From Bdellovibrio sp. ArHS (GTDB taxonomy: Bacteria; Bdellovibrionota; Bdellovibrionia; Bdellovibrionales; Bdellovibrionaceae), in the NCBI RefSeq assembly GCF_000786105.1, contig NZ_JTEV01000026.1, forward strand, positions 1-61,984: 61,984 nucleotides of DNA, in the 5' to 3' direction. The position numbers were made by a program, and so were the translations under genes. Shown here piece after piece: positions 26,871 through 29,138 of the stretch (its first letter is position 1; each line of letters begins with the position of its first letter). The notes beneath the pieces were generated by a model. It had not been told where the DNA came from, did not search any database, and saw nothing but the letters and a program-made list of their open reading frames with translations.

Positions 26871-28985
26871 TTAAAGTGCGGCTTGCACACTCAACCATAG
26901 GGTTCGAGCCTCGCCAGGGTATAGATAAAGATGACCATACTGCTCAGGAGACTCTTTCCAAAAGCGCGTGTCCAAAATATTCTGCACTGACAAATGCCAC
27001 TGCATCTTGGTTTGCAGGAAAGTCACGGCATAAGAAGCTCCAACATCCCAACGAGTCCAGGCTGGAAGCGTCACTTCATTGTCGGCCGTCACCGCACGAG
27101 GACCTTCATGCAGTGCTCGCGAAGACAAGGTCAGACCTTTAAGTTCTGACACCTTGTAAGACACTTGCCCACGCAAGGTGTGACTGGGAACATTAATGGG
27201 GGTTTTCTCATTCAAGGTCGCCGCAATGCGCGCGTCCTTGCGGCGCGCTTTGAGTGCCATCGCACTTCCTTCCAAATGCCAGTGTCCCCACTGCACATCT
27301 CCGCCGATTTCAAGGCCCTGATGTTCAGCTCTGCCATCGACCTGATACAAAGGCTTTTGATCAAGAATCAACGGACGGTCAATTTGAAAAGCCGTCACGA
27401 ACCAGGTGTTGTCTTCTAAGCCGCGCAGGCCGATTTCATATTGATGACTGGTCACATCTGGTAAGTATTCTCCGGCATGGACGTAGTCAGCTTTATTTGG
27501 AGTTACAAACGATTCAGCGCCCTGACTGGCACTGACGTAGGTCATAAATTTTTCAGATTCATAGGACAACCCCAACCAAGGTAAGAGGAAACCTTGTTCA
27601 TGCGCCACCGAACGACTGCCGTCGGTACGGATGCTATCGCGCTGGATGTGGCTGTAACGAATCCCTACCCACAAATTCCATTTTTCATAGGTCAAATTGT
27701 CAAAAACAAAAAAGTCCGTGGTGACGGAATCACGATGAGTGCCCTCATCGGTCAACGCGGGATCAGCCGGAAGCTGAGCCGTGCCATCGACGTTGCCTAC
27801 GCCCACGTAGTTATAGGCTTGCTTCTGTACCCGCGTTTTTTGCTGCGACGTCAAAACCCCAAAACTCAGCTTATGCTTTATCACTCCGGTGTGCAGCAGG
27901 CCGTCTACTGTGGACTTCAATGAAGAGGTCCGACGTTTTTCCCCATCACTTCTAAAATCGTAAAGATCAAAAGTTCCATCAGAACAATAACGGTCATAGT
28001 TGTTTTCACTGGAACAACCGTAGGGATAAGCCAATCTATCATCCGTGGTCAGATCCTGAAAGGCTGTGGTAATGGAGGCACTCCAGTTCGCTGCAAAAGA
28101 GTATTTGAAACCAAGGCTTCCTGTCAGACCTTCAAAGACGACGGGTTGACTCCACAATTGATTGTTCAGATTCAAGCGCGGGTCGACCGGTTCGGGAAGC
28201 TTTGTCCCTAATAAGCTAAATGCCGCCTGACTCGGTTGTGATCTTCGCGACCATTCAATTTCAGCTTGGAATAACGAGTTTGCGGAAAGATTCCAATCAC
28301 CCGCAAAGGCCGCCAAGGAGCGACTGCCATCCGCATTCTTTAACTCAGGTCGCAAACTTTCTTGCGCTAAGTTCAGACGGTAACCGAAATCTTCCGCTCC
28401 GTACCAGCGACCGCCAACATCCACCGCCGTCAAAAAACCACCACGTTCTTTGACTTCCATTCGGACGTCTCGCAGATCCTGAGTTGTGGGTCTTTTGACT
28501 TTGTAATTGATAACACCACCAGGACTCGCGACCCCCACTTGCGCTCCACTGAGTCCCTTTAAAATATCGATCTGTTCTTTGTTCTCTAAGGCGATAAAGG
28601 TCTCGGCATTGATCGGCAAAGTGTCGCGTAAATAGCTGGTGCGATTGTCCAAAACGAATCCGCGAATGGACAGCGCATCCCAATAGCCAGCGGCATTGTA
28701 GCTGTTGGATACGGCCGCTTCGACTTGCGTCACATCAGAAAGCTTTTGAATATTACTTTCCGTCATTGTTTTCGCGGAAAGAACTCGCAATGATGCCGGA
28801 AGCTCTTTGGTCGAGACATCGAAGAATCCAGAGACGTCACTGTCCGTTTCGGCGATTTCCACGACTTTGACGGCAGGAATATCAGATTCTGACACCGTAC
28901 TTGAGGTCAGATCTTCAGCAAATAATTTTGTGGAAAAAGTCAGTGTCAGAAAGCTGACGAACGCCAGCATGCGTATGTTTTTCAT
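26871..28985 (-). CDS. TonB-dependent outer-membrane receptor, likely for thiamine compound
   Basis: 704 residues: signal peptide (cleaved after KLFA), a plug domain (LRVLSAKTMTES, SIRGFVLDNRTSYLRD, QIDILKGLSGAQVG, SPGGVINYKVKRP) and a long run of beta strands making the barrel. The plug most resembles siderophore receptors, and sequence-only annotation would probably say siderophore. However, a TPP riboswitch lies directly upstream, which strongly suggests uptake of thiamine, its phosphate or a precursor across the outer membrane. Energy would come from a TonB/ExbBD complex encoded elsewhere. ATG 28985 is inside a region controlled by the riboswitch. Confidence 0.88.
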   Translation of the reverse strand: MKNIRMLAFVSFLTLTFSTKLFAEDLTSSTVSESDIPAVKVVEIAETDSDVSGFFDVSTKELPASLRVLSAKTMTESNIQKLSDVTQVEAAVSNSYNAAGYWDALSIRGFVLDNRTSYLRDTLPINAETFIALENKEQIDILKGLSGAQVGVASPGGVINYKVKRPTTQDLRDVRMEVKERGGFLTAVDVGGRWYGAEDFGYRLNLAQESLRPELKNADGSRSLAAFAGDWNLSANSLFQAEIEWSRRSQPSQAAFSLLGTKLPEPVDPRLNLNNQLWSQPVVFEGLTGSLGFKYSFAANWSASITTAFQDLTTDDRLAYPYGCSSENNYDRYCSDGTFDLYDFRSDGEKRRTSSLKSTVDGLLHTGVIKHKLSFGVLTSQQKTRVQKQAYNYVGVGNVDGTAQLPADPALTDEGTHRDSVTTDFFVFDNLTYEKWNLWVGIRYSHIQRDSIRTDGSRSVAHEQGFLLPWLGLSYESEKFMTYVSASQGAESFVTPNKADYVHAGEYLPDVTSHQYEIGLRGLEDNTWFVTAFQIDRPLILDQKPLYQVDGRAEHQGLEIGGDVQWGHWHLEGSAMALKARRKDARIAATLNEKTPINVPSHTLRGQVSYKVSELKGLTLSSRALHEGPRAVTADNEVTLPAWTRWDVGASYAVTFLQTKMQWHLSVQNILDTRFWKESPEQYGHLYLYPGEARTLWLSVQAAL

Positions 28986-29075
28986 AACCTTCCCTGCGCG
29001 AGCATTATCTCTTTCAGGTTCAAAGGGTCATTCTCAGCCAGCAACCCCCATGGTCGCTAGCACCCCTAGTTGTGG
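28986..29075 (-). ncRNA. TPP (THI-box) riboswitch
   Basis: Reading the minus strand, all conserved blocks occur in order: AACTAGGGGTGC (from 29071), GCTGAGA (about 29038-29032), ACCC (29028-29025 region), AACCTGA (29020-29014), GATAATGC (29009-29002) and GCGCAGGGAAGG (from about 28999). AACT (29071-29068) can close helix P1 with GGTT (28989-28986), ending right at the start codon. The AGGGAAGG segment is at once the conserved 3' aptamer strand and the ribosome binding site of the receptor gene. Thiamine pyrophosphate binding should therefore lock the ribosome site within the aptamer, with no separate expression platform. Confidence 0.93.
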
Positions 29076-29138
29076 CGAAGAACTTCGCGCAGAGAGGGCT
29101 CCGGAGTCAATCAAAAACTGTAACTGAATACTGCGGAA

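Follow-up and report, generated by a model that had tools for sequence, protein, structure and literature searches.

A TPP riboswitch containing the ribosome site of a TonB-dependent receptor, probably for thiamine, and its changing expression platforms in Bdellovibrio

Riboswitches for thiamine pyrophosphate (TPP) whose aptamer buries the ribosome site are among the commonest direct mechanisms, the defining distance being a start codon within 15 nucleotides (nt) (PMC2258182, Barrick and Breaker 2007). In E. coli, TPP binding is predicted to hide the ribosome site and the start codon of tbpA (thiBPQ), which encodes a thiamin/TPP importer (PMC8609307). In the outer membrane, TPP-regulated TonB receptors for thiamin have been predicted since Rodionov 2002, as cited in PMC2771747 and PMC3400609. 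For the Bacteroides TonB-dependent thiamine transporter OMthi (BT2390), control by a TPP riboswitch is joined by genetic support, since a biosynthesis mutant needs more thiamine once OMthi is deleted (PMC5613172). Here we describe a TPP riboswitch directly before a TonB-dependent receptor gene in Bdellovibrio sp. ArHS, located within a 61,984-base stretch of contig NZ_JTEV01000026.1 (the window). The sensor, the direct arrangement and riboswitch-controlled thiamine TonB receptors are all already known kinds. The less expected parts of the finding are the repeated turnover of expression platforms within one genus and the import-only setting, in which ThiL occurs without ThiE or thiamine pyrophosphokinase (TPK). 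A search of the open-access literature found no publication on a TPP riboswitch in Bdellovibrio.

The window was scanned with cmscan against all Rfam families at the gathering threshold, and its sole match was the TPP family RF00059 (29077-28973, minus strand; 59.9 bits, E 2.9e-9; gathering cut-off 54.3 bits). The match covers the complete model, positions 1-105, and this Infernal/Rfam check bears out the TPP riboswitch that the initial annotation had recognized from the letters of the DNA. An RF00059 search of the 3.5-Mb genome returned one TPP riboswitch, the window copy. The riboswitch and its gene comprise the following features:

29077 to 28973 (28973..29077), minus strand: TPP riboswitch aptamer including flanks, from cmscan with RF00059
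29068..29071, minus strand: 5' strand of P1, AACU, from the Rfam alignment and pair mapping
28991..28995, minus strand: AGGGA, the conserved 3' aptamer segment (3' strand of P4 and the P4/P1 junction), which is also the sole candidate for a Shine-Dalgarno sequence
28986..28989, minus strand: 3' strand of P1, GGUU, from the Rfam alignment and pair mapping, its last base adjoining the start codon
26871..28985, minus strand: TonB-dependent outer-membrane receptor of 704 aa, with an ATG start and a signal-peptide-like N terminus

The 3' part of the riboswitch on the minus strand reads CGCAGGGAAGGTTATGAAA. P1 pairs 29071-29068 with 28989-28986, base 28985 immediately after it is the A of the ATG, and AGGGA (28995-28991) is separated from the ATG by 5 nt. 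Because AGGGA lies within the aptamer and P1 abuts the ATG, no space is left for a separate expression platform. At base resolution, then, P1 ends at the ATG, the conserved 3' aptamer strand doubles as the Shine-Dalgarno sequence and space for a platform is absent, all as the initial annotation had proposed. The start adjoining P1 and the ribosome site inside the aptamer place the element in the direct class of Barrick and Breaker 2007, whose members start no more than 15 nt from the aptamer core and have no extra platform, and in which the purine-rich conserved 3' segment likewise forms the ribosome site (PMC2258182). Among 27 Bdellovibrio and Burkholderiales aptamers, 97.9% of the cells pair, compared with 38-63% for a shifted partner strand. 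Compensatory changes on both sides occur in P3 and P1, and P2, P4 and P5 are invariant or change on one side. With this conservation across the 27 copies, the RF00059 match is not due to chance.

We consider it very probable that this element is a TPP-sensing, translation-level OFF switch fused to the ribosome site of a TonB-dependent receptor for thiamine or phosphorylated thiamine, so that vitamin B1 scavenging is probably shut off when the cell has enough. In this reading the aptamer, the ribosome-site overlap, the receptor family, the conserved association and the gene content are computed; that TPP is bound, that it lowers expression, which substrate is carried, where the promoter lies and that an ATP-binding cassette (ABC) importer acts as partner are inferred. 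Transcription would start from a promoter just upstream, giving a leader hardly longer than the aptamer. At low cytoplasmic TPP, P1 would be weak, and ribosomes could bind AGGGA(AGG) and initiate at the adjoining ATG. With TPP bound, P1 would be locked, burying AGGGA, the spacer and the start-codon edge, and receptor synthesis would stop. The predicted duplex of AGGGA with the anti-Shine-Dalgarno sequence is worth -4.9 kcal/mol, a value for the canonical sequence and not one taken from this genome. In the fold model, the state with P1 enforced lies about 3-4 kcal/mol above the unconstrained one, with GGUU and the start-codon edge buried; TPP binding would make up this difference, and the strand freed without ligand would be mainly GAAGGUU. 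These folding energies are for isolated RNA, with tertiary contacts and co-transcriptional folding ignored. Unlike the window switch, E. coli tbpA uses an anti-P1 stem outside the aptamer, and its riboswitch controls an inner-membrane system, whereas the one in the window controls an outer-membrane receptor.

The riboswitch and the receptor occur together across the genus. Among 23 other Bdellovibrio genomes, which with the window's own make a set of 24, exactly one TPP riboswitch was found in 18 and the receptor in 19. The riboswitch lies directly before the receptor in 19 of the 20 receptor-bearing genomes (own included), every Bdellovibrio TPP riboswitch found adjoins the receptor gene, and both are absent from four genomes (Fisher p 5e-4 for co-occurrence in the 24 genomes). 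The genes flanking the receptor vary between Bdellovibrio species groups, and the riboswitch and receptor therefore form a conserved unit. In these 19 Bdellovibrio genomes, and likewise among Burkholderiales homologues, the riboswitch lies 5' of the receptor gene on the same strand; two of the Burkholderiales homologues belong to a thiamine operon. The Burkholderiales receptors are about 40-49% identical to the window receptor, and most of their genes are preceded, at a distance of some tens of bases, by a TPP riboswitch. The aptamers of these loci (CTAGGGG ... CCCTTTGAACCTG ... GAG-loop-CTCGCGCAGGGAAGC) are like the Bdellovibrio subtype and distinct from the thiC riboswitches of the Burkholderiales genomes; receptor and aptamer thus have a common history across phyla. 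A quick tree suggested that the Bdellovibrio receptors descended from within Burkholderiales; this claim was dropped, because separate clades are compatible with the approximately unbiased (AU) test (p 0.53). In many Burkholderiales loci, one or two tRNA genes follow about 40-60 bases after the receptor (L002-L015).

The receptor carries a plug domain (PF07715) at residues 60-158 (46 bits; cut-off 23.9) and scores 262.6 bits on TIGR01783, 'TonB-dependent siderophore receptor' (cut-off 223.5), which agrees with the remark in the initial annotation that the protein looks like a siderophore receptor by sequence. Its structure model is a plug-filled outer-membrane beta-barrel (predicted local distance difference test score, pLDDT, 79), and the nearest fold matches are FemA, FhuA and FoxA, with template modelling (TM) scores of 0.83 for FhuA and 0.79 for FemA. 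Judged by description, it is like the receptors of the Rodionov 2002 predictions as cited, which were siderophore-like and assigned to thiamin by regulation and neighbourhood. No iron genes were identified among the window neighbours, and no relatives of the receptor were found in viral contigs.

To place the receptor in the thiamine economy of the genus, gene content was searched with profiles in 16 Bdellovibrio genomes, one per species and including the window's own. Several of these are single contigs rated 99-100% complete; the window's own genome is 96% complete, and complete relatives agree with it. ThiC, TPK and PnuC/PnuT-family proteins were not found in the 16 genomes, nor was the ThiK equivalog in the Bdellovibrio genomes searched, in which ThiE gave only sub-threshold or marginal family matches. 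The ThiE candidate of the own genome, a weak PF02581 match, was discarded because it sits in a protein that, read by eye, resembles a nitronate monooxygenase. With neither ThiC nor ThiE found, thiamine synthesis in this genome was rejected. The thiamine pathway was likewise noted as incomplete in a genome-scale model of B. bacteriovorus (PMC7529429). ThiL, the enzyme that phosphorylates thiamine monophosphate, is above cut-off in 13 of the 16 genomes (259 bits in the own genome), and a need for TPP itself, for want of a thiamine kinase, was rejected on account of its presence. Proteins with transketolase-type pyrimidine-binding domains are present, and such TPP-type enzymes would create a demand for TPP.

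No thiamine importer or enzyme was seen beside the receptor in the Bdellovibrio neighbourhoods. Elsewhere in the genome, genes for a permease and an ATPase accompany one for a binding protein of the ThiB type (TIGR01254, 201 bits; cut-off 93). The initial annotation had suggested looking through the genome for biosynthesis genes and a partner inner-membrane importer, and this unlinked ABC operon is the partner candidate that emerged. The operon has no TPP riboswitch in the window's genome; the corresponding ThiB operon of a genome from another family of the order (G040) has one, at 72 bits the strongest of the whole search. In the loci compared (L109 5868-6875 and L020, G040:C93:34863-34971), the riboswitch of this relative extends over the beginning of its gene for the ThiB-type importer. 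In two Variovorax, a riboswitch of the same subtype is followed by cytX, thiO, thiG and thiE, with the receptor last (cytX, TIGR02358; thiO, TIGR02352 just below cut-off; thiG, PF05690 about 325 bits; thiE, PF02581 about 140 bits; the cytX-thiO interval was read in part).

On the simplest reading of this gene content, the receptor would admit thiamine compounds to the periplasm, the unlinked ThiB-type importer would carry them into the cytoplasm and ThiL would convert thiamine monophosphate to TPP. The gene content is in keeping with uptake of thiamine or thiamine phosphate in finished form rather than of a precursor. Thiamine monophosphate appears the most economical substrate, because thiamine itself would need a kinase and none was recognized, and an unrecognized thiamine kinase is possible. 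The organism is presumably a predator, as its genus suggests, and prey may be the source of the vitamin. We put forward, tentatively and with the balance somewhat against it, a wider proposal with two parts: vitamin B1 would be obtained by import alone, as thiamine monophosphate (or TPP cut down to it) from prey, and a two-part riboswitch would repeatedly have been simplified into a one-part riboswitch. Phosphorylated thiamine released from prey would pass through the receptor and the ThiB-type importer, ThiL alone would make TPP, and the aptamer itself would become the ribosome site. The route from receptor through importer to ThiL would explain, in a form open to test, how TPP reaches a predator that lacks genes for vitamin B1 synthesis. 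The arrangement is like that of OMthi (BT2390), a TPP riboswitch before a TonB-dependent receptor, the likeness being one of arrangement and not of compared sequences. OMthi works with PnuT and TNR3 alongside full biosynthesis, whereas no PnuT-type protein, TPK or biosynthesis was found here; unlike OMthi, the receptor in the window probably has a ThiB-type ABC importer and ThiL as partners.

The expression platform differs among the 19 Bdellovibrio riboswitches (loci L085-L103), nine of which are direct and ten have a separate platform. In the nine direct copies, AGGGA (AGGAA in one) is followed by the ATG after 5-6 nt; in the other ten, the ATG lies 47-83 nt further downstream and has its own Shine-Dalgarno sequence. 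Fold models of one separate-platform leader (G015) contain an anti-aptamer hairpin in the free RNA, with GCAGGGAAG paired with CUUCCCUGC, and a pairing of CUUCCC with the ribosome site when P1 is enforced, consistent with a classic two-state switch. On the receptor tree the arrangement changes at least four to five times, and the AU test rejects one origin of the direct type (p 2.6e-45). Direct occlusion is probably the derived state, since the start codon lies further downstream in the sampled Burkholderiales copies. Unlike the direct class as described in PMC2258182, the direct type and separate platforms alternate in Bdellovibrio among orthologues of a single gene. With its closely related riboswitches on one gene, some direct and some with a separate platform, the genus is a naturally occurring series in which the gain and loss of expression platforms can usefully be studied.

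Several observations weigh against a TPP-operated OFF switch on a thiamine receptor. The receptor resembles siderophore receptors in both sequence (TIGR01783) and fold (FemA, FhuA and FoxA), and no thiamine receptor structure was found for comparison. One Bdellovibrio genome (G003) has the receptor without a riboswitch, none being detectable even at a relaxed threshold, an apparent loss of riboswitch control; the receptor there stands straight behind an HflX-like gene (L087, around 5600; G003:C47). Two of the nine direct-type copies (G009 and G021) have a very short P1. In addition, folding pairs the Shine-Dalgarno AGG in P4 with or without P1, and because P4 is predicted to hold AGG even without ligand, the extent to which access to the ribosome site would change is uncertain.

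We weighed three alternatives against these data. That the protein is a siderophore receptor as labelled, with the riboswitch coupling iron uptake to thiamine status, would account for the TIGR01783 score and for its nearest solved structures. This is very unlikely, given that the identity to solved siderophore receptors is only about 17-20%, that PqqU, a carrier of the cofactor pyrroloquinoline quinone (PQQ), is also among the fold matches, that the Variovorax homologues adjoin thiE in a riboswitch-headed thiamine operon and that riboswitch and receptor keep together where the neighbouring genes change; the genus also has no ThiC, an iron-sulphur enzyme, to tie thiamine to iron. The cytX gene heading the Variovorax cluster belongs to a transporter family for hydroxymethylpyrimidine (HMP) and would fit a receptor for a thiamine precursor, either HMP or thiazole. 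Such a role is highly unlikely in Bdellovibrio, where ThiE was not found, so that precursors could not be joined, and ThiC was likewise not found. The initial annotation had allowed thiamine, its phosphate or a precursor as substrate; a thiamine role is supported by the riboswitch association and the Variovorax operon, and a precursor is unlikely in this genus. With regard to mechanism, translation-regulating riboswitches of E. coli have been suggested to act also on Rho-dependent termination (PMC8609307), and the aptamer might act mainly through transcription termination or mRNA stability, its overlap with the ribosome site being incidental. We regard this as extremely unlikely, as there is no space for a separate terminator between the aptamer and the ATG and the 5-6 nt spacing of AGGGA and ATG is retained in all nine direct-type copies. 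If translational control of a thiamine receptor is true, a thiamine-uptake role would replace the misleading 'siderophore receptor' label in 20 of the 24 Bdellovibrio genomes and in Burkholderiales.

A candidate promoter element lies just upstream of the aptamer:

29105..29110, minus strand: candidate -35 element, TTGACT, the matching -10 element being weak in this species

The pattern TTGAC, a spacer of 15-18 nt and [CGT]ATAA ending 9-13 nt before CTAGGGG is present in 15 of the 19 Bdellovibrio copies, and the window and its two nearest relatives retain only the -35 TTGACT of this candidate promoter. Between the candidate -35 element and the aptamer (window 29070-29090), this species has a short inverted repeat without mismatches, GCGAAG TT CTTCGC, which is not seen in its two nearest relatives.

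TPP riboswitches were also seen beside other transport genes. In another family of the order (G048), a TPP riboswitch abuts a gene for a TonB receptor (L032, G048:C1:102616-102718). This receptor has a Plug domain (42.5 bits) and no significant similarity to the window receptor (E 0.08), which suggests an independent recruitment. In G045, a TPP riboswitch precedes a sodium:solute symporter gene (PF00474; L022, G045:C25:38066-38155), and this symporter is a possible thiamine importer in that lineage.
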